A stretch of 39,668 nt of DNA from Magnetococcales bacterium (GTDB lineage: Bacteria > Pseudomonadota > Magnetococcia > Magnetococcales > DC0425bin3). Location of the stretch: the NCBI GenBank assembly GCA_015228935.1, contig JADGCO010000037.1, positions 1 through 39,668 on the forward strand, read 5' to 3'. Positions 7,207 through 27,130 of this stretch are shown here, piece by piece. The translations under genes were made by a program, and so were the position numbers. The number at the start of each line of letters is the position of its first letter. The first letter of the stretch is position 1. The notes beneath the pieces were generated by a model. The model saw only the letters and a list, made by a program, of their open reading frames with translations, searched no databases and was not told the origin of the DNA.

Positions 7207-8922
7207 TCAAAACGGGGGGATAAAATTGGTTGGGGTATCCCAGGGAATTTTTTGTTCCGGATCCATCCAGGTGGGAACCAGGCCGGCCAGCAGACGGGCC
7301 ACTTCCAGGACCGAGTTGGGCGTGGGAAAGCGACGGACATGGACCCCATCGAACCGGCTGGGAAAGTTGTATCCCCCATAGGCTGAATAGAGGTAACGAT
7401 ACACGGAGCGTGCCTTGAGAAAAGCCTCCCGGGTGATGTTTTTGCCATGCACGCCGAATGGAAAGGCAAAATGGTGAACCGGTTCGTCCAGGATCTCTTC
7501 CAGTATTTCCCGACTGCGCTGCAATTCAAAATCGACCTGCGGCCCCGTATTCTGCCCCAGATCGGCGTGCCACATGGTGTGGGAACCGATGCCGAAACCA
7601 CGGCGACGCAAAGTTCGCACATCATCCGCTGTCAATAGATCAAATCCCAACGGCGTTGCCCGTTCCAGCATCAATCCAGGCGAAATGAACAACGTCGCCG
7701 GATGACCGTGCATTTCCAGCCAGGGCAGGGCCGTGATCAGGTCGCTTGCATAACCGTCATCGATGGTAATGGCCACGGCCAGGCGGGAATTGTGGCCACT
7801 GGCCAAACGCCGGACGGCCATGTCCAGGGAGATCACTTCCGCATGTTGATGTATGAAGGTGATCTGACGGACAAACTCTTCCAGGGGCAGGGTGATGCCA
7901 TGCCCATGATCGTTGGCGGTGCGATGATAGTACAAAACCACGATGGGGGCATCCCCGACGGCGATCCGATGCGCCAGGTGTTCCTGACCGGCCTGACGGG
8001 ATTGGAGGTATTGAGCAGACTCCTGGAGAATGGCACCGGACCGCTCTTCCGAAGCGTGATGCCGGTACCGCGGCATTTCCAGGATCCGCTGCCGGCGCTG
8101 CCGGGCCACCCGACCAGAAAAAATGTTCGCAAAACCGGCCTGGGGGTCCGGATGGAACGAGTGTCCACGTCCACCTGGCAGGGTCAGGGGCGCACGGCCG
8201 ATCAAACCGGCTTGATTGGCACAAAAATTTTGCATCCATTCCCGGATCAGAAGCAGACTCGACTGTGTCCCCAGAATGGCCAGGCTTTCCAGGGTCGCAC
8301 AAGGCTCAATGGCGAGAAGACGTTGGGCGGCAATTTCGCCGGCAGCCCGCTCTGGAGACCCCCACCAGCGCAGGGTCAACAGGATGTGTTCGCGAGCGGT
8401 CAGGAGTTCCAGGAGACCCGGTTGCCAGGCAATCCTGCCGGGCAGCAACGGTCCACCATAAACCTGCAAGGATCCCAGATGGGGTACCTGCAACAAGGAG
8501 GTCTCCGACCAGCCGTCTGCCAGGACGATGCCCAAATCCGGTTGGCGGCGTGCCAACTCCCTGCCGATGCTCCGGGGAGAGTCGGCATCCAGGCAATCAC
8601 AGGCAATTCCAAAGTCCTGACACCAGGCAACCCAGGAAGCCGGAGTCACGGCACGGGCCGGATAATCTGCCGTAAACGCCTGCTCCACAGCCCGGACGGC
8701 CTGCCGGATCGGCAAATCCGGACCCCGCTCTGCCCAGTATCCTGGAAAACGATAGATTCCCCGTTTCAACAGGCTTTTCCGGTGCCCCGAGCAACATCGA
8801 CCACTGGCCACCACAACCCCGTCCAGAATCACTCCGCGCATGCCAGCCAGTTCACGCACCAGCCAGAGAGGACCGGGGGCCGGTGATGCCGCCACGAAAA
8901 AGATCAATTTGAGTGGACGCAT
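7207..8922 (-). CDS. Polysaccharide deacetylase fused to a degenerate formyltransferase-like domain
   Basis: 571 residues from an ATG directly behind an in-frame GTG. The C-terminal part (about 325-540) is a NodB-type carbohydrate deacetylase: TIDDGY with metal/catalytic D388-D389 and SHTMWHADL with metal ligands H448 and H452. It would remove N- or O-acetyl groups from a polysaccharide or sugar. The N-terminal ~230 residues look like a Rossmann formyltransferase (PDLGIVLADGWSETSLLQVPHLGSLQV, then a proline-rich PLLPGR turn). The catalytic Asn and His of the active family (GSxNxHxSLLP) are Q153 and Y155 here, so formyl transfer is unlikely. There is no signal peptide, so it probably works in the cytoplasm on a precursor. 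The start is 10 bases after the stop of the sigma-54 activator, so the two are co-transcribed. Confidence 0.85.
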   Translation of the reverse strand: MRPLKLIFFVAASPAPGPLWLVRELAGMRGVILDGVVVASGRCCSGHRKSLLKRGIYRFPGYWAERGPDLPIRQAVRAVEQAFTADYPARAVTPASWVAWCQDFGIACDCLDADSPRSIGRELARRQPDLGIVLADGWSETSLLQVPHLGSLQVYGGPLLPGRIAWQPGLLELLTAREHILLTLRWWGSPERAAGEIAAQRLLAIEPCATLESLAILGTQSSLLLIREWMQNFCANQAGLIGRAPLTLPGGRGHSFHPDPQAGFANIFSGRVARQRRQRILEMPRYRHHASEERSGAILQESAQYLQSRQAGQEHLAHRIAVGDAPIVVLYYHRTANDHGHGITLPLEEFVRQITFIHQHAEVISLDMAVRRLASGHNSRLAVAITIDDGYASDLITALPWLEMHGHPATLFISPGLMLERATPLGFDLLTADDVRTLRRRGFGIGSHTMWHADLGQNTGPQVDFELQRSREILEEILDEPVHHFAFPFGVHGKNITREAFLKARSVYRYLYSAYGGYNFPSRFDGVHVRRFPTPNSVLEVARLLAGLVPTWMDPEQKIPWDTPTNFIPPF

Positions 8923-8932
8923 CACAAACAGT

Positions 8933-10861
8933 TCATTTGATGTTGTACTGGTCCAGTTTCCGGTACAGATTGCTGCGGCTCATACCCAATATTTTGGCCG
9001 CAACGATTTTTTTCCAATGTGCCGCTTCCAGGGCTTGAAGGATCCGTCCTTTTTCATCCGGATCCTCATCAGGATTGATGGACGAAGCTGCCGGAAGATG
9101 TTTTTCGGCTGCATCGTGATCAGGCGATTTCACCGGTTTCGCACTCCTGGAATCCATTTTTTCCGGAGTGATTCTGTCGGGAAGAATGTCATTTGAAACG
9201 ATTTCTTCGAGATCGTTTGACCCGGCATTGTTTTCCCCGAAATAATAAGGAGAAAAGTCAGACGAATCGATCTCCCTGTGGAGGGCGGTGAGTCGTTCGG
9301 GAACCTCTCCACTCAGGATATCACCGGCACCGGTTTTGTTGAATTTCTGGTACTCCCTGGGCAGATGTTCCATCCGGATTTCATTTTGACGGCAAAAGGC
9401 AAAGGCATGTTCGATGACATTTTCCAGTTCCCGAATATTGCCAGGCCAGGCATGCTTCTGGAACAGATCCATGACCGTATGATCCAATCTGTTGATGTGT
9501 TTGTTGTGTTTGGTATTGAATTTTTGCAAAAAATGCTGGGTCAGAAGGGGAAGATCGTCGGACCGTTCCCGCAGGGGAGGCAGGTGGATTTCGACCACCT
9601 TGAGACGGAAATAGAGATCTTCGCGAAACTCTCCTTCAAGGATGCGTTTTTGCAGATCACGATTGGTGGCGGTGATGATCCGGACATTGACCTTGACCGT
9701 GCGCGACTCCCCGACCGGCTCGAACTCCCGTTCCTGGATGATGCGCAGAAGACGGGTCTGCATGGAGTGTGGAATATCCCCGATTTCATCCAGAAAGATG
9801 GTCCCCTTGTCGGCCATTTGAAAACGGCCCATGCGGTTTTTGATGGCACCGGTAAACGCCCCCTTGACATGACCGAACAGTTCATCTTCGAGAAGAGACT
9901 CCGGCAATCCCGAACAATTGACCTTGATGAAGGGTCCGCCTCTGCGGCGACTCTCCGCGTGCAGGGCCTCGGCAATGAGTTCCTTGCCGGTACCGGATTC
10001 GCCGGTGATCAGGATGGTGGTATCCATGCCGGCAACATCTTCGATGAGATTGTAGATTTCCATCATGCGGGCGTTCTGGCCAATGAGGCGATGAAACCGG
10101 CTCCGCGGACCGCGCAATGGACCTGGTCCAGTGTGCCGGGTGTGATCGTAAACCACAAACACCACCCCATCAAAACGCCCGGCATTGCCCCAGATTGGTG
10201 CGGCAGAGACTTGCATGGAAAGGGACTGTTGATCCTGTTCAAGGGTGCAGGAACGTTCCTCCCGGCGCACGGCCTGACGATTTTCGACAATCCGCTGAAA
10301 AATTTCTTCCAGATAGGAACCACACGGCGTCAGTTCCGCAATGGTGATGGGACGTCCGGTATCGGGGGGAAAGCCGCACAAACGGTGGGCAGCCTCATTG
10401 GCATTGAGAACAATCATGTTTTCATCGACCAGAATGACAACCTCTTCGACCCCGTCCATGACGGCATCCAGTTGCTGACGCAAAAGGTGGCGCCGCCCGG
10501 ATACGGCCCGAAACTCCAAGGCCTGTTGGATGGATTTCAATAACCGGGTCGAGGTGACAGGATCGGTCAGATGATCGAAGACCAGAATGGTGATGCCTTC
10601 GGAGACGGGTTTGCCACCAACCAGCAGCAGGGGTGCGCCCAGACTCAGCTTCTGGATTTTTCCCAGCCATTCCGGGTCCGGGCCATGGGCCGGGACTCCG
10701 ACCAGAATGAGATCGAAAGCACCGCCGGTCAGGGCATCCACCGTCGAATCCCTTCCCCGGATGGTCTTGACCTGGAAATTTGTTCCAGACAGCCAAGCTT
10801 CAACGGGAACCGGCAGATCGGCCTCTTCGCGTACAATCAAAATGCGGGGCCTGTAGGTCAT
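8933..10861 (-). CDS. Sigma-54 enhancer-binding activator with pseudo-receiver and PAS domain
   Basis: 642 residues. It activates sigma-54 RNA polymerase by ATP hydrolysis. The N-terminal ~120 residues are receiver-shaped but lack the chemistry: ILIVREEAD instead of ILIVDDE, G55 where the phospho-Asp belongs (DLILVGV), and DPV instead of the KP pair. A PAS-like domain follows (about 130-250, DGVEEVVILVDENMIVLNANEAAHRLCGF). The AAA+ domain has Walker A GESGTGKE, the sigma-54 contact loop GAFTGA and Walker B GTIFLDEIGD. A Fis-type helix-turn-helix ends the protein (AAKILGMSRSNLYRKLDQYNIK). A charged linker of about 100 residues precedes it. I start at the ATG giving MTYRPRILIV, behind GGAGCGGAG; the frame is open a further ~200 codons through repeats, but that part is not domain-like. 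It diverges from a sigma-54 promoter at 11561. Confidence 0.93.
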   Translation of the reverse strand: MTYRPRILIVREEADLPVPVEAWLSGTNFQVKTIRGRDSTVDALTGGAFDLILVGVPAHGPDPEWLGKIQKLSLGAPLLLVGGKPVSEGITILVFDHLTDPVTSTRLLKSIQQALEFRAVSGRRHLLRQQLDAVMDGVEEVVILVDENMIVLNANEAAHRLCGFPPDTGRPITIAELTPCGSYLEEIFQRIVENRQAVRREERSCTLEQDQQSLSMQVSAAPIWGNAGRFDGVVFVVYDHTRHTGPGPLRGPRSRFHRLIGQNARMMEIYNLIEDVAGMDTTILITGESGTGKELIAEALHAESRRRGGPFIKVNCSGLPESLLEDELFGHVKGAFTGAIKNRMGRFQMADKGTIFLDEIGDIPHSMQTRLLRIIQEREFEPVGESRTVKVNVRIITATNRDLQKRILEGEFREDLYFRLKVVEIHLPPLRERSDDLPLLTQHFLQKFNTKHNKHINRLDHTVMDLFQKHAWPGNIRELENVIEHAFAFCRQNEIRMEHLPREYQKFNKTGAGDILSGEVPERLTALHREIDSSDFSPYYFGENNAGSNDLEEIVSNDILPDRITPEKMDSRSAKPVKSPDHDAAEKHLPAASSINPDEDPDEKGRILQALEAAHWKKIVAAKILGMSRSNLYRKLDQYNIK

Positions 10862-10866
10862 CGATA

Positions 10867-11427
10867 TCACTCCGCTCCAGCCTGATGACGGGTCAGGGTT
10901 CGGGAGTCCATCCCAAACCATCCCTGGTGTATGTCCAGGTTCGTATCCGCCAGGGTTGCCGATTTCGCCTGTCCATTTCCGCCTGTCCATGTCACTTCCG
11001 CTCGAACCTGATGACGAATCAGGGTCCGGGCGTTTGTCCCAAACCAGCCAAGGATTATCTCCAGATTTGTGTCCACCAGAGCTTTCGATTCCGCATGACG
11101 GGCAAAAAGGAGCTGCTCTGCCTCGCGGATGAGACACTGTCCAAGAGTATGTCCCAGACCGACCATGGGACACTCCAGGCTTGTGTCCATGAAGGTTTCC
11201 GGTATTTGTCTGAAGCTCACAGCCGCAAGGGTTTTCGGCTCTGTCTGATGGCCAAAAAGGAGCTGTTCCGCATCGCGGATGAGACACTGTCCAAGAATAT
11301 GTCCCAGACCGGGCATGAGACACTCCAGGCTCGTGACCGCCAGAGTTTTTGCCCTGCACAATGGTCGAAAATCTGTCGCTGGAACACTTCTGGGACAAAA
11401 TGTCCTGGACATTTTGTCCCACAGCAC
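10867..11427 (-). CDS. Possible repeat protein directly upstream of the sigma-54 activator
   Basis: An open frame of up to 186 codons that ends 5 bases before the activator ATG. Its translation resolves the DNA repeats of this region into related protein units: VTSLECLMPGLGHILGQCLI, then MDTSLECPMVGLGHTLGQCLI, then VDTNLEIILGWFGTNARTLI, then ADTNLDIHQGWFGMDSRTLT. Comparing the last two copies by eye, about 10 of 19 base differences fall on third codon positions of this frame, which suggests coding selection. Against it: the only upstream starts (GTG at 11427 or ATG at 11412) overlap a 31-bp palindrome and have no ribosome site, and the family is unknown. It may be a real small gene, a decayed one, or non-coding repeats. 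Two other frames are also open here. Confidence 0.35.
   Translation of the reverse strand: MLWDKMSRTFCPRSVPATDFRPLCRAKTLAVTSLECLMPGLGHILGQCLIRDAEQLLFGHQTEPKTLAAVSFRQIPETFMDTSLECPMVGLGHTLGQCLIREAEQLLFARHAESKALVDTNLEIILGWFGTNARTLIRHQVRAEVTWTGGNGQAKSATLADTNLDIHQGWFGMDSRTLTRHQAGAE
10868..11360. repeat. Array of four degenerate 126-150 bp repeats
   Basis: Two similar copies are aligned on AAAAAGGAGCTG at 11104 and 11254 (period 150) and share GATGAGACACTGTCCAAGA and ATGTCCCAGACCG. Two more diverged copies are aligned on CCTGATGACG at 10881 and 11007 (period 126) and share TCCCAAACCA. All four carry a TCCCA(A/G)ACC core followed by a TCCAG core. The array fills the region between the activator and the divergent operon. 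Confidence 0.8.
11391..11421. promoter_or_regulatory. Perfect 15-bp-arm palindrome, candidate activator binding site
   Basis: GGGACAAAATGTCC, one central T, then GGACATTTTGTCCC; including the flanking T and A the arms are 15 bp and perfect. Its centre lies about 180 bases upstream of the expected start of the sigma-54 promoter at 11561-11576, the usual distance for an enhancer site of a Fis-type activator. Such an activator is encoded next door. The same TGTCCC/GGGACA hexamers recur in the adjacent repeats. Binding is inferred. Confidence 0.55.
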
Positions 11428-11783
11428 CCTTTTGCGCAGGCAAATCTTGCCTCACAGGCGTCCCTCAACGCAAGGAGAGGGGAAATCAAAGAGTTCATCA
11501 AACATAATAACTCATAAAAAACAATATATTACAAAATACACACATAATTGCCTCTGGTGATGGCAAGGAAGATGCATATTTATTAGCAAAGCAGAAGATT
11601 CTAATGTTGTGATCAAGACCCGGCAGGATGCCACAGGAAGAGCGCCATGAAAACGAAAAAGAAGGAACGTCCCTCTCCGAAGCGACGAACCTCATCCACC
11701 TGAATCCGAGCCATCCCCCGGATGGTTGCAGTTTAAAGAACAGAACAAGTTTGCAAGAAGTCTCTGATCCGAAGGAAAGAACC
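11422..11783. other. AT-rich intergenic control region
   Basis: About 360 bases between the repeat array and the ankyrin gene. The segment 11490-11600 is strongly A+T-rich and holds the sigma-54 promoter. An in-frame ATG at 11628 would lengthen the ankyrin protein by 52 residues, but it has no ribosome site and would bury the signal peptide, so I treat 11588-11783 as a leader of about 195 bases. Confidence 0.5.
11561..11576 (+). promoter_or_regulatory. Sigma-54 (-24/-12) promoter
   Basis: TGGCAAGGAAGATGCA matches the consensus TGGCAC-N5-TTGCW with the essential GG at -24 and GC at -12 in exact spacing; only two less critical positions differ. It faces the ankyrin/cytochrome genes and lies beside the divergent gene for a sigma-54 activator. 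Transcription should start near 11587. Confidence 0.7.
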
Positions 11784-12755
11784 ATGAACGCCAAAGGAAT
11801 GAAATTCACCGCAGCACTGTTGGCCCTGGCCGGGATGGCCGCCTTGTCACAGATGGGGGACAGCCGCTCCGAGTCGGAACCGCAACAACTCACCATGGCT
11901 GCCATGGATGGTCAGTTGCAACAGGTCGATCAACTGCTGGCCCAGGGAGCCGATGGCAATGCCCGTGGCTACATGGGTCGCAACGCCCTGATGCTGGCCG
12001 CCGAGAATGGTCATGCCGATGTGGTGCGCCACCTGCTCGCCAAAGGGGCGGAAGTGAATGTGCGCGACTCGTGGAACTATACACCCCTGATGCTGGCCGC
12101 CCAATGGGGCTCGAAAGAGATCGTTGAAACCCTGATCGCTGCCGGCGCGGATCCGTCCGTACATACACGCAGTGGCATCGATGCTGTCATGCTGGCCGCC
12201 CGCTATCAATATCCGGAACTGGTCCAGCTTCTGATCGAGCGCGGTGCCCCGGTGGATCGGGCCGATGCCCAGGGCAAAACAGCCCTGATGCTCGCCTCCG
12301 AACGCGGTTTTGACAACGTCGCCAAAGTGCTGCTGGCCCATGGTGCCAACCCCAACCAGCAAGCCCGGGAAGGATATACCGCCCTCATGCTGGCCGCCAA
12401 AGGCGGACATGACAAAACCGTCAAGGCCCTCCTGAGTGCCAAGGCCGATTTGAGTCCACAACATGAATGTGGTTGCACAGCACTTCTCCTGGCGGCGGAA
12501 AAGGGATACACTGGGATCGTGGAAGACATTCTCGCCAGCGGAGCCAATGTAAACGCTGCCAATGACGAGGGAACCACAGCCCTGATGTTTGCCGCCCGGC
12601 ACGATCACCTGGACACCGTGCGTGCCCTGATCGCCCGGGGTGCAAACCCGGGTCAGACCGACAAGGAAGGCAAAACCGCCATCGACTATACGACCAGTCG
12701 GGATCAGAATTCCGCCATCCGCCGCCTGATCGCCGCCGATGCCGGTCACGCCTGA
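11784..12755 (+). CDS. Secreted ankyrin-repeat protein, first gene of the cytochrome operon
   Basis: 323 residues. The ATG has GAAGGA a few bases upstream and starts a signal peptide (MNAKGMKFTAALLALAGMAALSQ). The rest is about nine consecutive ankyrin repeats with the typical G-x-TALMLAA...G......LL..GA.... pattern (for example GRNALMLAAENGHADVVRHLLAKGAEVN). It is therefore a periplasmic protein-binding scaffold with no catalytic motif. As first gene behind a sigma-54 promoter and ahead of three cytochrome genes, it may help assemble or hold the multiheme complex, or protect against oxidative stress as described for some periplasmic ankyrin proteins. Both roles are inference. A second secreted ankyrin gene is at 25657. 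Confidence 0.88.
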   Translation: MNAKGMKFTAALLALAGMAALSQMGDSRSESEPQQLTMAAMDGQLQQVDQLLAQGADGNARGYMGRNALMLAAENGHADVVRHLLAKGAEVNVRDSWNYTPLMLAAQWGSKEIVETLIAAGADPSVHTRSGIDAVMLAARYQYPELVQLLIERGAPVDRADAQGKTALMLASERGFDNVAKVLLAHGANPNQQAREGYTALMLAAKGGHDKTVKALLSAKADLSPQHECGCTALLLAAEKGYTGIVEDILASGANVNAANDEGTTALMFAARHDHLDTVRALIARGANPGQTDKEGKTAIDYTTSRDQNSAIRRLIAADAGHA

Positions 12756-12760
12756 GGACA

Positions 12761-12801
12761 GGGGGCAACCTCGCCTTCACCCGGAAATAACGGGGTTGCC
12801 C
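12761..12801 (+). other. Intercistronic hairpin
   Basis: GGGCAACC (12763-12770) pairs with GGTTGCCC (12794-12801), with a smaller CCCG/CGGG stem inside. No T-run follows, so it is not a terminator. It lies between the ankyrin and heptaheme genes and could set the ratio of the two messages by stabilising RNA. Confidence 0.4.
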
Positions 12802-12843
12802 ATGGAAACAACACGCTGAAAGAGGCCCGGGGAGACCTGACTC

Positions 12844-13779
12844 ATGACGCAGACCTCCGAAAGGAGAATCGCCACAGCGGTTCTCCTTTCCGTCGTTTCG
12901 ATCTTCACGTTCCTGTGGGGTTCTCCCGCCCAGGCCATCGATAAAGGCACCAATGCCTACTGTGAACGGTGCCACGGCATGCCCACCCTGGCGCAACACG
13001 ACCCACGCACCGGTCGGCTCATCAGCCTTTTCGTGGACCAGAAAAAGCTGGAGCAATCCAGCCACAAGAAACAAGAGTGCCTGGATTGTCACGGCAAAGG
13101 TTTCAAACAGTACCCGCATGATGCCGCATCAAGTTTGGAAACACGCCATTGTGTCGATTGTCACATGGAAAACAGCCGTTTCCAGCGCAATAAATTCGAG
13201 CGCATCGAACGTGAGTTCCTGAACAGCGTTCACTTCCAATCCATGCCGGACCGGTTCGACTGCTTTTCCTGTCACGAACCACACTCCTTCCAGACCGTCC
13301 CCAAGGAAAGCGAAATCAGCCTCCTGGTCCTGCGCGACAATCAAATCTGCCTGACCTGCCATAAAACCCAGGCAGGCACCGCTTCCCTGACCAAACGACG
13401 CTTCGCCAGCCTGGAAACAACCCACAATTGGCTGCCCCAGGTGGCGTTGCACTGGCGCTCGGTCCGCTGCCTGGAGTGCCATACCCCCACCCTGGGAGGC
13501 AATCACGTCATCCTGAAAGCAACCTATGCAGAACGCAATTGCGTGGCCTGCCACACCCGTGACTCCATCCTGTTGACCAAACTTTACAAATTTCGTGCCC
13601 AGGAAGATCGCCAGAAAGCCGGATTCATCAACAGCGTGGTCCTCAACGATGCCTATATCGTCGGCATGACGCGCAATGCCTGGCTGGATCGTTTCAGCCT
13701 GATCCTGGTTGGTTTGACCCTCCTGGGTGTCACCCTGCACGGATTGGGTCGAATACTCGCCGCCAGGAGATCAAAATGA
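12844..13779 (+). CDS. Periplasmic 7-heme c-type cytochrome with C-terminal membrane anchor
   Basis: 311 residues, with GGGGAGA before the ATG. It has an N-terminal signal/anchor (VLLSVVSIFTFLWGSPAQA) and seven CxxCH heme sites: CERCH, CLDCH, CVDCH, CFSCH, CLTCH, CLECH and CVACH. A C-terminal transmembrane helix (LILVGLTLLGVTLHGLGRIL) follows. The protein would be an electron carrier held on the periplasmic face of the inner membrane, passing electrons between the membrane cytochrome b downstream and the octaheme protein. The spacing of heme sites and scattered single His residues fit NrfB/NapC-like multiheme wires, but I cannot name a family. Its stop overlaps a spurious-looking ATG created by a local duplication. 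Confidence 0.9.
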   Translation: MTQTSERRIATAVLLSVVSIFTFLWGSPAQAIDKGTNAYCERCHGMPTLAQHDPRTGRLISLFVDQKKLEQSSHKKQECLDCHGKGFKQYPHDAASSLETRHCVDCHMENSRFQRNKFERIEREFLNSVHFQSMPDRFDCFSCHEPHSFQTVPKESEISLLVLRDNQICLTCHKTQAGTASLTKRRFASLETTHNWLPQVALHWRSVRCLECHTPTLGGNHVILKATYAERNCVACHTRDSILLTKLYKFRAQEDRQKAGFINSVVLNDAYIVGMTRNAWLDRFSLILVGLTLLGVTLHGLGRILAARRSK

Positions 13780-13865
13780 CCTCCCTGTCAATCCTGAACG
13801 GCCACATCCTCGCGGATGCCGCCCGGCACGGATCGGGTCGGGCGTCTGCTGCCAGGAGACCGAAA
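13738..13865. repeat. Direct duplication of about 39 bp (offset 89) covering a gene end and ribosome site
   Basis: The last 13 codons of the heptaheme gene with the following AGGAGA (13738-13776, CACGGATTGGGTCG...GCCAGGAGATCAAAA) recur at 13827-13865 (CACGGATCGGGTCG...GCCAGGAGACCGAAA). The second copy supplies the ribosome site of the cytochrome b gene. The first copy now drives a 32-codon ORF (13776-13874) that overlaps the heptaheme stop as ATGA. Confidence 0.75.
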
Positions 13866-13874
13866 CATGAATAA
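13776..13874 (+). CDS. 32-codon ORF created by the duplication, possibly a translation coupler
   Basis: It starts ATGA over the stop of the heptaheme gene, has AGGAGA 5 bases upstream, and ends TAA inside the first codons of the cytochrome b gene. The product (MTSLSILNGHILADAARHGS...) resembles no protein; its second half repeats the tail of the heptaheme protein. It may simply pass ribosomes from one gene to the next, or be meaningless. Confidence 0.25.
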   Translation: MTSLSILNGHILADAARHGSGRASAARRPKHE

Positions 13875-14490
13875 AATGATCGAGTTGTACCCAATATGGT
13901 TGCGAATCTGGCACTGGTTCAATGCGGGAAATTTTCTGCTTCTCCTGCTCTCGGGCATGGTGCTGCACTTCCCGGAAGCAACCTTGGGCATCCTCTCGTT
14001 TCCTACCGCCCGCATGTTGCATAACCTTTGCGGCGTCCTGATGGCCGTGGGTTACGGAATCTACCTGATCAATTCCATGCTTACCCGGAATTGGCGACAT
14101 TACCTCCCGGAACACAAAGGTTTCGTGCCGCGCATGCTGGCCCAGATCCGCTTTTATGCCGTGGATATCTTCCAGGGCAAACCTCAACCATTTCCGCCCA
14201 CGGTGTGCGCCAAGTTCAATCCATTGCAACAAGTCACCTACCTGGGAGTCATGTTTGGCCTCGTGCCGGTACTGGTCGTGACCGGAATTTTGTTCCTCTT
14301 TCCCGAATATGCCCCTGACCAGATCCTGGACCGGGGTGGCATCTGGCCGCTGGCCCTGTTGCATCAGGCTACGGCTGCCCTTCTCACCGCTTTTCTCGTG
14401 GGCCACATCTACCTGGCCACGGCAGGTGAAACCCCGGCCAGTGAATTCCGTAAAATGCTGACCGGTGAACAAATCCGTGACGACGCCTGA
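13867..14490 (+). CDS. Membrane cytochrome b subunit (b561/Ni-hydrogenase-type)
   Basis: 207 residues with AGGAGA before the ATG. Four hydrophobic helices carry histidines suited to bind two b hemes: H16 in RIWHWFNAGNF, VLHF in the first helix, MLHNLCG in the second, and LLHQATAALLTAFLVGHIYL in the fourth. The pattern is that of diheme quinol-oxidising subunits of the formate dehydrogenase/thiosulfate reductase/Ni-hydrogenase type. It would exchange electrons between the quinone pool and the periplasmic heme proteins encoded on both sides. The long loop between helices 2 and 3 (KGFVPRMLAQIRFYAVDIFQGKPQPFPP) is common in this family. Confidence 0.88.
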   Translation: MNKMIELYPIWLRIWHWFNAGNFLLLLLSGMVLHFPEATLGILSFPTARMLHNLCGVLMAVGYGIYLINSMLTRNWRHYLPEHKGFVPRMLAQIRFYAVDIFQGKPQPFPPTVCAKFNPLQQVTYLGVMFGLVPVLVVTGILFLFPEYAPDQILDRGGIWPLALLHQATAALLTAFLVGHIYLATAGETPASEFRKMLTGEQIRDDA

Positions 14491-14586
14491 AAGGCCGTCC
14501 GTGTCACATACCGACCGGTGAGCCGATCCGCAGTGACACGTTCTTTCCACTTTTTTTGCAGCGATCCAGTGCGGGGGAGTGACACG

Positions 14587-17181
14587 ATGACAGGAAAAAC
14601 AGCCAATTCCCAAAGTGGCATGGGACACATGACCATCATGGGCCTGCTTGTGGTCGTACTTCTGCTGGCAGGTACCGGCAAGAAGTGGATCTATCCCTAT
14701 TTTTTTGAACAATATACCGGGGTCGTCAACCGCACCCTGACCTACGCCTCGTCCAAACCGGTCAGTGATGCGGAGTTTGAAATCATCGCCCGGGAGCTGA
14801 CGGAAAAGCATCGTGCCCAACAGGCCAATCGCATCCTGGAAAAGGAAACCAACCCCTTTGCCCGGCGCATCAAGACCACCATGCTGATGCAAACCCGGTC
14901 TTTCCTGCACGAAACCCCTTTTCCCCACATCCGTTATTTCCGGGATGCCGGAATCCGGCAATACGATGGTCCCAGCACCTGCCTGCGCTGCCATGCCACC
15001 ATGCAGGTGACAGATGCCAAGGGCAAGGTGACCAATGTGGACACCCTGACCGACGTGGTGGAAACGGTGCATTTCAAGTTCCAGCGCAGTGGTCCCGGTT
15101 TCAGCACCTACGGCTATGACGGGCGTCAGGTCAATGCCGCAGGTTCCCGGGCCATTCCGGTAGGCAAGATTGACCGGGCCTGTGGTGTACCGGGTTCGTT
15201 CTCCTGGACCGGTTGGGCCGAACTGGCTGCCTCACGTCCAAACCAGCCGGAACCTGGCCAGCCAGGCACAGCCACCGCCCCGCATGCACCGGCCAAGAGT
15301 ACCTTGCCCACACCGGCCAGCGCTGTCCAGAGCGCCATGCCTGCACCGGCCAACACCGTCCAGAGCGTCGCACCCACACCGGCCAACATCATCAAGAGTG
15401 ATTTGACCGTTCCTTCCGACCCGACCCGGAAAGAAAAGACCGACCCCACAACCGAGGCCAGGACTGTCGCCAAAGCCGATGCCATTCCCGGCCACCCCGA
15501 AGGGACCCTCGCCCGCAGTGAAGGGTGTGGACAGTGCCATATCGGCGGCGGCTACCATCCGGCCACGGAAAAAATGATGCCGGTGGGCGATGTCCCGGAA
15601 AAGGTCAAGCAGGGAATCGACTGCCTGATCTGTCATGCCCAGGCTTACGATATGAACTATCGGCACGTCATCCAGGATGAGGGCGGAACCCGTTGGAACC
15701 AGGATCGTACCCTGAAAGCGGCCCTCACGGTCGGTATTCCCACCAAAGACAACTGCATGTTCTGCCACCAGCACAACATGGGCGGTGACCTGGAAGCCGA
15801 TCTGGCCGCCAATGCCGCTCCACGCAACCTGGGCTACGAAAATCCGCGCCTGCTGCACCCGGGTGCCAAGCGGGCCAATTCCATCACCGCCGACAATGAC
15901 GTGCATGCCGCAGCCGGTCTGATCTGCACCGACTGTCATGTCCCACAAGGTCACAAAATACCCCGGGGTACCAAAGGGGTGGATCTGGTGGCCACCGATC
16001 TTCCGGAACGGGAGGTCACCTGCGAGGGATGCCATACCAACGCCGCCCACCTGAAATCACCCTATCGGGCCATCCTGAACGGTCATCTGGACCGGGTCTC
16101 CTGCGAGGCCTGTCATATCCACAATCTGGGTAGCGACAGCGTCATGCTGCGGGACTGGATCCATCCGGTCTGGAACGAAGAGGAAGGCATCTATGTCTAT
16201 CGGGATGTCCTGCGTTCCGGCGATCCCGGCAAGGGGTTCCTGTTCTTGTGGTTCAACGGCAATGGCACCTTCCTGGCCAATGCCCTGGGCGACAATCCCC
16301 TGGGCGGCAATGGCTACAATCCCCTCATGAACCAGATGGCCCGCATCGACGATCCGCAACTCATCGAACAGGTGCGGCAGGCGGCTCTGGAAATCAAGAA
16401 AAAACATCCCGAGCTCGATGTGGATCGCTATGTGCGCGAGGTGACACAGCCCCTGACACAGCTCACCCCGGAGATGCTCGCCAAACGCCAACGCATGATC
16501 GAAGAGAATATCCGGCCCGTCATGAAACAGGGACACAGCCGGATCTACCCCTTCAAGGTATTCAATGCAATCATGTATGAAGACATGTCCAACCAGGGAC
16601 CGTTCGGGGCCATGATCCTCCCCTTTGACTATCCCACCTACTATGAAAAGGGCGATGCCCTGGCCTCCATGGTGGAAGCCATCAAGAGTCCCATCGTCCG
16701 GCGGATGTATCAGATTCCCTTCACCCAGTACATGATGAACGAGTTCATGAACTATTTCGGGGTGGAAAAGTGGTCCGGCATCTATCCCATGACCGATGAT
16801 GGCAAGTTGCGCAATGTCGAATCCCACTGGATGCGGCAGATGGGGACCCTGATGATCAATCATGGCATCAAACGCGAAGGTCGCGGGTGCCGCGAGTGTC
16901 ATGATCCCAAAGGCATCATCAATTTCAAGGCGTTGGGTTACCCAGAAGAGCGGATTCGGGATTTGACGCAGTTGCCCGAGTTGGAAAAAATTTCCTACAC
17001 GCCCACCCAGACAACCAAAACGCCGAAACCGGCAACAAGTGGTCCGTCACCCGCCATGGGGGGTATGCCATCGGGTCAGCCATCCGGTGGAGGTGCATCC
17101 GGTGCGCCACTTCAGCCGCATCATCCCGGCATGATGCGCCCGCACATGCCGCCGATGGGGTATCCACCGCGAACCTATTGA
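14587..17181 (+). CDS. Large octaheme c-type cytochrome, probable periplasmic terminal reductase
   Basis: 864 residues from the ATG preceded by GGGGGAG; an upstream GTG is less likely. One N-terminal transmembrane helix (MTIMGLLVVVLLLAGTG) anchors it. Eight CxxCH sites: CLRCH, CGQCH, CLICH, CMFCH, CTDCH, CEGCH, CEACH and CRECH. Between hemes 1 and 2 is a Pro/Ala/Thr-rich linker (about 218-310) with 11-residue repeats (TPASAVQSAMP, APANTVQSVAP). Some 250 residues without heme sites separate hemes 7 and 8, and the C-terminus is Pro/Gly/Met-rich. Eight hemes recall octaheme tetrathionate or hydroxylamine-type enzymes, but this protein is far longer than tetrathionate-reductase octahemes (about 450) and the substrate cannot be read. 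Last gene of the operon; a strong terminator follows. Confidence 0.88.
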   Translation: MTGKTANSQSGMGHMTIMGLLVVVLLLAGTGKKWIYPYFFEQYTGVVNRTLTYASSKPVSDAEFEIIARELTEKHRAQQANRILEKETNPFARRIKTTMLMQTRSFLHETPFPHIRYFRDAGIRQYDGPSTCLRCHATMQVTDAKGKVTNVDTLTDVVETVHFKFQRSGPGFSTYGYDGRQVNAAGSRAIPVGKIDRACGVPGSFSWTGWAELAASRPNQPEPGQPGTATAPHAPAKSTLPTPASAVQSAMPAPANTVQSVAPTPANIIKSDLTVPSDPTRKEKTDPTTEARTVAKADAIPGHPEGTLARSEGCGQCHIGGGYHPATEKMMPVGDVPEKVKQGIDCLICHAQAYDMNYRHVIQDEGGTRWNQDRTLKAALTVGIPTKDNCMFCHQHNMGGDLEADLAANAAPRNLGYENPRLLHPGAKRANSITADNDVHAAAGLICTDCHVPQGHKIPRGTKGVDLVATDLPEREVTCEGCHTNAAHLKSPYRAILNGHLDRVSCEACHIHNLGSDSVMLRDWIHPVWNEEEGIYVYRDVLRSGDPGKGFLFLWFNGNGTFLANALGDNPLGGNGYNPLMNQMARIDDPQLIEQVRQAALEIKKKHPELDVDRYVREVTQPLTQLTPEMLAKRQRMIEENIRPVMKQGHSRIYPFKVFNAIMYEDMSNQGPFGAMILPFDYPTYYEKGDALASMVEAIKSPIVRRMYQIPFTQYMMNEFMNYFGVEKWSGIYPMTDDGKLRNVESHWMRQMGTLMINHGIKREGRGCRECHDPKGIINFKALGYPEERIRDLTQLPELEKISYTPTQTTKTPKPATSGPSPAMGGMPSGQPSGGGASGAPLQPHHPGMMRPHMPPMGYPPRTY

Positions 17182-17199
17182 TCGCCCGAGTATCCAGCC

Positions 17200-17234
17200 A
17201 AGGCGGTCCCCCAAAGGGGGACCGCCTTTTGTTT
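17200..17234 (+). terminator. Rho-independent terminator of the cytochrome operon
   Basis: A perfect 13-bp stem, AAGGCGGTCCCCC and GGGGGACCGCCTT, with loop AAA, ends in TTTTGTTT. It lies 18 bases after the octaheme stop. Confidence 0.92.
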
Positions 17235-25656: not shown

Positions 25657-26946
25657 CTATTTTCTTTTCAGGACTGCGGTCAAATAATCGGCCAGAACCA
25701 TGTAGTGATTCAGGGCGGCCACCCGGGCGGCATCCTGACCGGCAGTATTTTGCAGGCGCAGATTGGCCCCTCTTGATTGCAGGAGTTTCACCGCCTCGAT
25801 ATGTCCATGCGCTGCTGCCATAAGCAGGGGGGCATTTCCTTCCTTGTCCTGCAAATTGAGCGGCGCTCCCATATCCATCAGGATGGCCATTTCCCGGGTT
25901 CGATTGTGGGCTGCGGCCCAGTGGAGGGCACTGCGGCCTTTATTGTCAACGGAGCGAATATCGGCCCCATTGGCCAGCAGGAGATGCATCGTCAGATCGC
26001 GACCATCCATGGCGGCCCAGGTCAGCGGGGTTCTTCCCCCTTTGTCGGCAAGATTGATTTTGGCCTGCATTTCCAGGAGGGTCTGCACAGCCTGCAAGCG
26101 ACCCTCGTGAGAGGCGATGATCAGGGGAGATACCCCATCTTCATCCAGTTTGTTGGGATCAATTTTGCTTGTCCCACTCAGGAGCTTGCGCAGCTCTTTG
26201 GCGTCACCTCTGGCGGCGGCGTCAAACAGGGGATCGCTTCCCTTTTTATGCTCGCCGGCCTCGGCATGCTCATGATGTTCATGAGTGGCATGCATGTCAA
26301 CCTTGGCATCTTTCGCCTTGGCACCCTGTGGACGGGATTTTGCCTTATCGTTGCCATCTTTCAAGATGCCCTTGTCGGCGAGATATTTTTGTGTATCCGC
26401 CAATTCCAGCAGAGAGGCCACCCGACCCCAACCACCGGCATGGGCACGATCCAGGGCTGACTGACCATTCTTGTCGCGCAGGGAGAGATCGGCCCCGCTG
26501 CCCAGGAGCAGCAACACGGAATTGAAGCGCCCTGCCGTTGCGGCCCACATGAGTGCTGTCTCCTTGTCCGCATTGACCATGTCCAGGTTGGCACCCCGAT
26601 CCACCAGGATTTCCAGAATATGGATATGCTCCTCGCGGGCAGCCCACATCAGGGCCGAGGCACTCATCGAATCCATGACCTCGTCATGTTTCAGGCGTTC
26701 GATATCGGCAGCATCGATCTTGCCCCCTTCATGACCATGCTCGTGATGTTCCTCTTCATGTTCCTCTTCGCCGCTGAACAGAAAATCCGGTGGAATCCTG
26801 CGATCCAGCATCATGCGCACCGCAGCGGCATTACCCTTGCGGACCGCCTGGATGAACCATTCATCCATGCGCATGGACCAACTGTCGCCCGCATAAAGGA
26901 GAATGGCCAAGCCTAGAAAAAATTGCCAAACAGTCTCTTTTTTCAT
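25657..26946 (-). CDS. Secreted ankyrin-repeat protein with histidine-rich segments
   Basis: 429 residues from the ATG giving MKKETVWQFF, behind AAGGGAA. A signal peptide (FFLGLAILLYAGDSWS) sends it to the periplasm. Two ankyrin blocks: three to four repeats (about 90-185, SASALMWAAREEHIHILEILVDRGANLD) and five repeats (about 235-420, GRTPLTWAAMDGRDLTMHLLLANGADI). Each block is preceded by a His/Glu cluster (EEEHEEEHHEHGHEGG; THEHHEHAEAGEHKK) of the kind that binds zinc, nickel or copper. A metal-sensing or metal-buffering scaffold is a reasonable inference; the family itself only implies protein binding. It lies upstream of the efflux pump genes on the same strand but 423 bases away. Confidence 0.88.
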   Translation of the reverse strand: MKKETVWQFFLGLAILLYAGDSWSMRMDEWFIQAVRKGNAAAVRMMLDRRIPPDFLFSGEEEHEEEHHEHGHEGGKIDAADIERLKHDEVMDSMSASALMWAAREEHIHILEILVDRGANLDMVNADKETALMWAATAGRFNSVLLLLGSGADLSLRDKNGQSALDRAHAGGWGRVASLLELADTQKYLADKGILKDGNDKAKSRPQGAKAKDAKVDMHATHEHHEHAEAGEHKKGSDPLFDAAARGDAKELRKLLSGTSKIDPNKLDEDGVSPLIIASHEGRLQAVQTLLEMQAKINLADKGGRTPLTWAAMDGRDLTMHLLLANGADIRSVDNKGRSALHWAAAHNRTREMAILMDMGAPLNLQDKEGNAPLLMAAAHGHIEAVKLLQSRGANLRLQNTAGQDAARVAALNHYMVLADYLTAVLKRK

Positions 26947-27130
26947 GAAGGTTCCCTTGCGTTTTCTCAAAATCAGAAGACCTTTCCGGAAATCAGGAAA
27001 CTCGGAATAGGGTCCGCTCCGTGGATCATCGAATCAACCCATCCCCGTCGCCTCACAGTGTACCTGCACATCCGAGTGTGAGGGAAGACGGAATTTTGAC
27101 TTTGTTCTTGACCAGTCGGGAGGGATATAA

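Follow-up and report, generated by a model that had tools for sequence, protein, structure and literature searches.

The window analyzed here (39,668 nucleotides, one contig of a 4.7-Mb Magnetococcales genome) carries a probable order-wide variant of known octaheme respiration, with a well-supported sigma-54 regulon and an unusual ankyrin component. A divergent sigma-54 activator gene precedes co-directional genes for an ankyrin-repeat protein (ANK), a heptaheme cytochrome (C7), a cytochrome b (CYTB) and an octaheme cytochrome (C8), with an intrinsic terminator last. Our favored reading, held with moderate confidence, is that these genes form an on-demand, quinol-linked reductase regulon of the octaheme tetrathionate reductase (OTR) type, with a periplasmic ankyrin protein as maturation factor. 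Magnetococcales are mostly uncultivated and known for magnetotaxis, and the locus would provide them with a specific, testable respiratory system whose regulator, operator and promoter are defined and which is conserved throughout the order.

A five-gene locus conserved in Magnetococcales

As presented in Table 1, the ankyrin, seven-heme, cytochrome b and eight-heme genes run in one direction and are closed by a terminator, and the open frames and the terminator stem bear out the original prediction on this point. The predicted sigma-54 activator gene is indeed divergent, but it lies outside the interval first assigned to the system. A protein search recovered C8 in 36 of the 48 genomes of the order, the genome of the window included. 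In one more genome (G038), counted beyond the 36, the operator, promoter, ankyrin and C7 genes are present and the contig ends before C8. Synteny in relatives had been proposed as a check on the locus, and we found the complete order activator-ANK-C7-CYTB-C8 in 17 sister loci and in the window (about 18 genomes). A scan of a bacterial and archaeal collection, with one genome per species, gave 13 close relatives, all Magnetococcales, and in some 350 genomes from elsewhere in the phylum C8 had weak OTR-like matches at best. In most relatives, stop and start codons overlap at the C7/CYTB and CYTB/C8 junctions, and in one locus (L052) CYTB and C8 are naturally fused in one open frame of 1021 aa; these overlaps and this fusion support a single transcript and physical contact between the products. 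Rfam matched no RNA between positions 8500 and 18000 of the window.

The open literature that we searched contained no description of a C7-CYTB-C8/ankyrin system. The original prediction did not note that C8 belongs to the OTR superfamily, so that the reductase part has relatives.

Table 1. Features of the locus, in positions of the window.
Feature	Position	Strand	Basis
Sigma-54 activator (EBP)	8933..10861	-	Pfam, alignment
Leader direct repeats, activator side	10871..11338		Two pairs, imperfect, 101 and 116 nt
Operator palindrome	11391..11421		Two overlapping dyads
Sigma-54 -24/-12 promoter TGGCAAGGAAGATGCA	11561..11576	+	GG-N10-GC spacing; conserved in sister loci
ANK, ankyrin-repeat protein, hydrophobic N-terminus	11784..12755	+	Pfam Ank repeats; alignment of 29 ankyrin proteins
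HxCGCTAL motif in ANK	12462..12484	+	H227, C229, C231
C7 heptaheme cytochrome	12844..13779	+	7 CxxCH in every ortholog
CYTB four-helix cytochrome b, FdnI/PhsC-type	13867..14490	+	Pfam, NCBIfam, His conservation
C8 octaheme cytochrome, OTR superfamily, membrane-anchored, presumed catalytic subunit	14587..17181	+	8 CxxCH, profile comparison
Intrinsic terminator	17200..17228	+	13-bp stem

A sigma-54 promoter and an operator mark a probable regulon

The -24/-12 promoter proposed ahead of ANK is present with the expected spacing. We analyzed the intergenic regions of 29 loci, that of the window among them, and found the form TGGC[AG][CT]-N6-TGC in 27, where first-order Markov versions of the regions gave an expectation of 0.33. 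The window's own promoter reads TGGCAA and lies outside this stricter form. Upstream, the palindrome TGGGACAAAATGTCCTGGACATTTTGTCCCA (31 bp, 15-bp arms with 1 nt between them) is perfect, as had been stated; it is not a single site, though, but two overlapping 17-bp dyads, TGGGACA-N3-TGTCCCA. With at most three mismatches over 14 positions, the dyad was found at all 29 loci (1.34 expected). As it was first derived from these same loci, the independent test is the whole-genome search, in which the exact operator TGRGACANNNTGTCYCA gave 20 sites in the 48 genomes against 1 for the reversed control. At two mismatches and in the window's genome alone, the search was uninformative, with 16 sites for the operator and 29 for the control. 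The leader repeats between the activator gene and the operator contain TGTCCCA half-sites and have no further copy in the genome; they might form an enlarged array of weak sites for the activator.

Seventeen of the 20 exact sites lie at genes of the C7-CYTB-C8 system. Nine are at C8 operons, G038 being counted among them, and a tenth, in G044, adjoins an activator gene located on a separate contig. Five precede stand-alone ankyrin genes (G042, G033, G028 and two adjacent sites in G021; loci L157, L159, L161 and L162), and the C8 operon of each of these four genomes has no ankyrin gene. The last two precede a second C7-CYTB operon in G033 and G021 (L160, L163), where the C8 operon is devoid of CYTB. 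Most of the translocated genes with an exact operator have their own sigma-54 promoter, and in three further genomes of the same family an orphan ankyrin gene is likewise equipped with promoter and operator. G020, finally, has C7-CYTB-C8 without a neighboring activator gene, orthologous ankyrin gene, promoter or operator. Since the translocated genes retain the operator and G020 is without all these elements, there is strong evidence, from sequence comparison, that the activator and the system genes constitute a single regulon. The conserved -24/-12 promoter with its upstream activator sites marks this regulon as a probable sigma-54 one, and control by the activator, as first proposed, is supported by the off-locus genes that carry the same operator and promoter.

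The other three exact operators (G014, G011 and G013) are away from system genes. One of them, at position 4169 of contig C60 of G014 (L155), lies, together with a sigma-54-like site, in front of a kinase-like gene and behind a universal-stress-like gene; it may be a further target of the regulon or a chance match. On contig C30 of G000 (L107), a cluster of three operator-like dyads was observed near hisB (8241-8340), with no recognizable sigma-54 promoter; the search at two mismatches had given a pair of sites near hisB on this contig.

The activator

The activator matches the Pfam models Sigma54_activat (234.5 bits), PAS and HTH_8, and its domains (a degenerate receiver, a PAS domain, an AAA+ domain with GAFTGA and a Fis-type HTH) are those of a sigma-54 activator. 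All 28 activators compared contain GAFTGA or GSFTGA, and the PAS cysteines 163, 181 and 206 (numbering of the frame aligned) are each conserved in 27 of the 28. The PAS domain with these three Cys is probably the part that senses the signal. The acidic pocket and phospho-Asp of the receiver are kept in some families (L058, L060, L069 and L074) and lost in the activator of the window. No histidine kinase was recognized by eye in the frames adjoining the activator gene. The sequence shared with relatives begins at the Met encoded at 10861, which sets the start at this ATG and led us to reject a longer GTG start; the N-terminal part of the 840-aa GTG frame is not conserved among relatives.

In NtrC-type systems, a 17-bp dyad lies upstream of a -24/-12 promoter. 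The locus shares this layout and the combination of GAFTGA with a Fis-type HTH in the activator. It differs by its operator (TGGGAC-N5-GTCCCA), by the degenerate receiver of this activator and by being dedicated to one respiratory system.

CYTB and C7 form a predicted route from quinol

CYTB matches Pfam Ni_hydr_CYTB (PF01292) with 86 bits and NCBIfam PRK15006 with 172.5 bits, below the equivalog cut-off of 204. His16, 52, 166 and 180 are invariant among 29 sequences and the protein has four hydrophobic segments, which makes it a cytochrome b of the diheme type; the spacing of its His residues resembles that in FdnI. With its four helices and four invariant His, CYTB is like the FdnI/PhsC-type cytochromes b (PF01292; PRK15006), but its gene, unlike theirs, is grouped with genes for multiheme cytochromes instead of a molybdenum enzyme.

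The seven heme motifs of C7 are constant across orthologs, with seven extra invariant His ahead of the C-terminal helix. C7 possesses an N-terminal signal and a C-terminal transmembrane helix; export of both ANK and C7 was read from the N-terminal sequence by inspection. The C-terminal helix carries H(G/A)xxR in 31 of 31 C7 sequences, and the same motif was found in the last helix of the OTRs paired with a cytochrome b (4/4). From this common motif, we infer that the last helix of C7 docks to the cytochrome b. C7 has 4.6 kDa per heme and C8 has 10-12, values that point to an electron carrier and a catalytic protein, respectively, by the rule that separates these two kinds of multiheme cytochromes (PMC7096707).

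C8 belongs to the OTR superfamily

Against the OTR family model TIGR04315 (NCBIfam), C8 scored 72.1 bits with a cut-off of 375, which leaves it outside the curated family; the best stretch covered residues 293-515. By hhalign, with a profile of five OTRs from Magnetococcales and from a single genome elsewhere in the phylum, C8 and OTR were aligned at 99.9% (E 1.7e-31) with all eight hemes in register, which places C8 in the superfamily. Among 20 orthologs, we counted a residue as conserved if none or very few departed from it. Of the residues so conserved, seven His of C8 (114, 162, 396, 440, 456, 488 and 500), the predicted distal ligands, align with His of OTR, and Cys199 is aligned with Cys64. 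Lys428, a candidate heme ligand, is part of a GAK motif that resembles the one around Lys153 of OTR, a register that rests on the motif beside an alignment gap and is the weakest point of the comparison. A Lys ligand on the active-site heme, with seven distal His, characterizes the OTR superfamily, and Lys153 and Cys64 of OTR reportedly have roles of their own (Mowat 2004); residues 64 and 153 were read from the chain of 1SP3. All full-length C8 orthologs have eight CxxCH motifs except those of G033 and G021 (L080, L081), which are without the heme-2 motif and the Cys199 region. An AlphaFold model of C8 from 20 sequences was not usable (pLDDT 48.9, pTM 0.42), and a fold search with this low-confidence model gave nothing below E 0.001.

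C8 is like the OTR of Shewanella oneidensis (PDB 1SP3) in its eight hemes in register and seven aligned His, and it has a candidate Lys and a candidate Cys. Unlike this 443-aa protein, it comprises about 715-864 aa, has an N-terminal membrane anchor and contains large insertions between hemes 1 and 2 and between hemes 7 and 8. The same genome also encodes, at another locus (L084), a canonical OTR together with a cytochrome b, beside which C8 is a paralog. From these alignments, C8 may well work like OTR although it is outside the curated family; its low family score and large insertions suggest that its substrate may differ from that of OTR. The Shewanella OTR reduces tetrathionate, nitrite and hydroxylamine, as Mowat 2004 and Atkinson 2007 are cited in PMC8840924, and an octaheme protein of Beggiatoaceae reduces tetrathionate and nitrite (PMC6449678).

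Proposed mechanism and alternative readings

In the mechanism that we propose, the activator would sense a signal, probably by its PAS domain, bind the dyads upstream of the promoter and switch on ANK-C7-CYTB-C8. CYTB would oxidize quinol by means of two b hemes, and C7, docked through its C-terminal helix, would hand the electrons to the membrane-anchored C8. C8 would in turn reduce a small oxidized sulfur or nitrogen compound outside the cell membrane, tetrathionate, nitrite and hydroxylamine being the first candidates. ANK, in the periplasm, would help to mature or dock the cytochromes through its HxCGC motif. Of this scheme, the sequences show the gene content and its conservation, the linkage of operator, promoter and genes, and the alignment of hemes and candidate ligands; the direction of electron flow, catalysis by C8, its substrate and the role of ANK are predictions. 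A quinol-linked reductase, periplasmic as the original prediction had it, is the most likely reading of the sequences and fits the OTR homology of C8, the four-His cytochrome b and an electron-transfer role of C7. Octaheme reductases would thereby gain a deeply diverged branch with a clear electron route from quinol.

We weighed four other explanations. The genes could be neighbors by chance and read from separate transcripts, as the gaps of 87-96 bp between them in the window would allow, but this is extremely improbable given the order-wide synteny, the overlaps and fusion in relatives and the translocated genes with the same operator. A chain running in reverse, a dehydrogenase in which the oxidation of a sulfur or nitrogen compound by C8 supplies C7-CYTB with electrons for quinone, would suit an order generally known for sulfur oxidizers, and homology does not give the direction. 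We nevertheless find it quite unlikely, because the OTR-like proteins that have been characterized were studied in reductase assays (PMC6449678; PMC8840924, which cites Mowat 2004 and Atkinson 2007).

It is rather unlikely that C8 is an electron conduit, for example to the outer membrane, minerals or a partner protein, instead of a terminal reductase. MmcA, a relative of OTR, is such a conduit (PMC11024163), and the system has 15 c hemes in total. However, C8 is peptide-rich for its heme content, keeps the OTR Lys and Cys, is about 60-80% identical among relatives and has a long heme-free region, and no outer-membrane partner was recognized in the operon. The same proteins could serve detoxification and not respiration, removing nitrite, hydroxylamine or a similar compound with quinol merely as the electron source. 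The reduction of nitrite and hydroxylamine by the Shewanella OTR (title of Atkinson 2007, cited in PMC8840924) would agree with this, as would an activator whose conserved PAS cysteines could sense reactive species; it is still unlikely in our view, as no nitrosative-stress genes were recognized, either among the operon genes or next to off-locus operators. Several points weigh against the favored mechanism: the low family score and large insertions of C8, the conduit role of MmcA, the low confidence of the structure model, the three exact operators away from system genes, the C8 proteins of G021 and G033 that have lost the heme-2 motif and the four genomes whose ankyrin has lost HxCGC. Overall, we retain the quinol-linked respiratory reductase as the preferred reading.

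A two-cysteine motif in exported ankyrin proteins

C229 and C231 are the only two cysteines of ANK, and almost all ankyrins of the system have exactly two, both in an H-x-C-G-C-T-A-L stretch of one repeat. By the repeat consensus, the HxCGC motif falls at beta-turn positions, with which ankyrin repeats usually bind partners. A degenerate DNA pattern for the motif matched 39 sites, spread over 31 genomes of the order, and a single site among some 350 further genomes of the phylum; that outside match lies in a 51-aa frame and is not an ankyrin. In four genomes (G016, G031, G035 and G037), the system ankyrin is without HxCGC. The HxCGC ankyrins examined outside the system neighbor a pair of OTR and cytochrome b, follow a molybdopterin-FeS-NrfD-TorD operon or are on a contig that is cut there. 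Both the motif and its wider association with reductases go beyond the original prediction.

Two ankyrin proteins required by heme enzymes offer a comparison. AnkB of Pseudomonas is periplasmic and needed for KatB (PMC7567364), and Cj1386 of Campylobacter, which is cytoplasmic and binds heme by Tyr57, traffics heme to KatA (PMC11442138). For ANK, maturation or docking of the cytochromes is our best guess; AnkB and Cj1386 differ in serving catalases. As a tentative extension, which we regard as possible but doubtful, the exported HxCGC ankyrins might be a dedicated periplasmic maturation factor, for heme, metal or thiol handling, common to three reductase types of Magnetococcales (C7-CYTB-C8, OTR-cytochrome b and molybdopterin-FeS-NrfD-TorD). 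With its recurrence beside different reductases, the periplasmic HxCGC ankyrin suggests a new kind of helper, one that would extend the catalase-associated cases to cytochrome and molybdenum enzymes.

Two side observations concern ankyrin genes. One gene, on the minus strand of the window (25657-26970), encodes a probably exported protein without HxCGC. The other belongs to a gene group at positions 10657-19184 of L107 (contig C30 of G000), in which a second activator gene and a molybdopterin reductase operon (MopB, FeS, NrfD, TorD, TorD) are divergent; the last gene of this operon encodes an exported HxCGC ankyrin.
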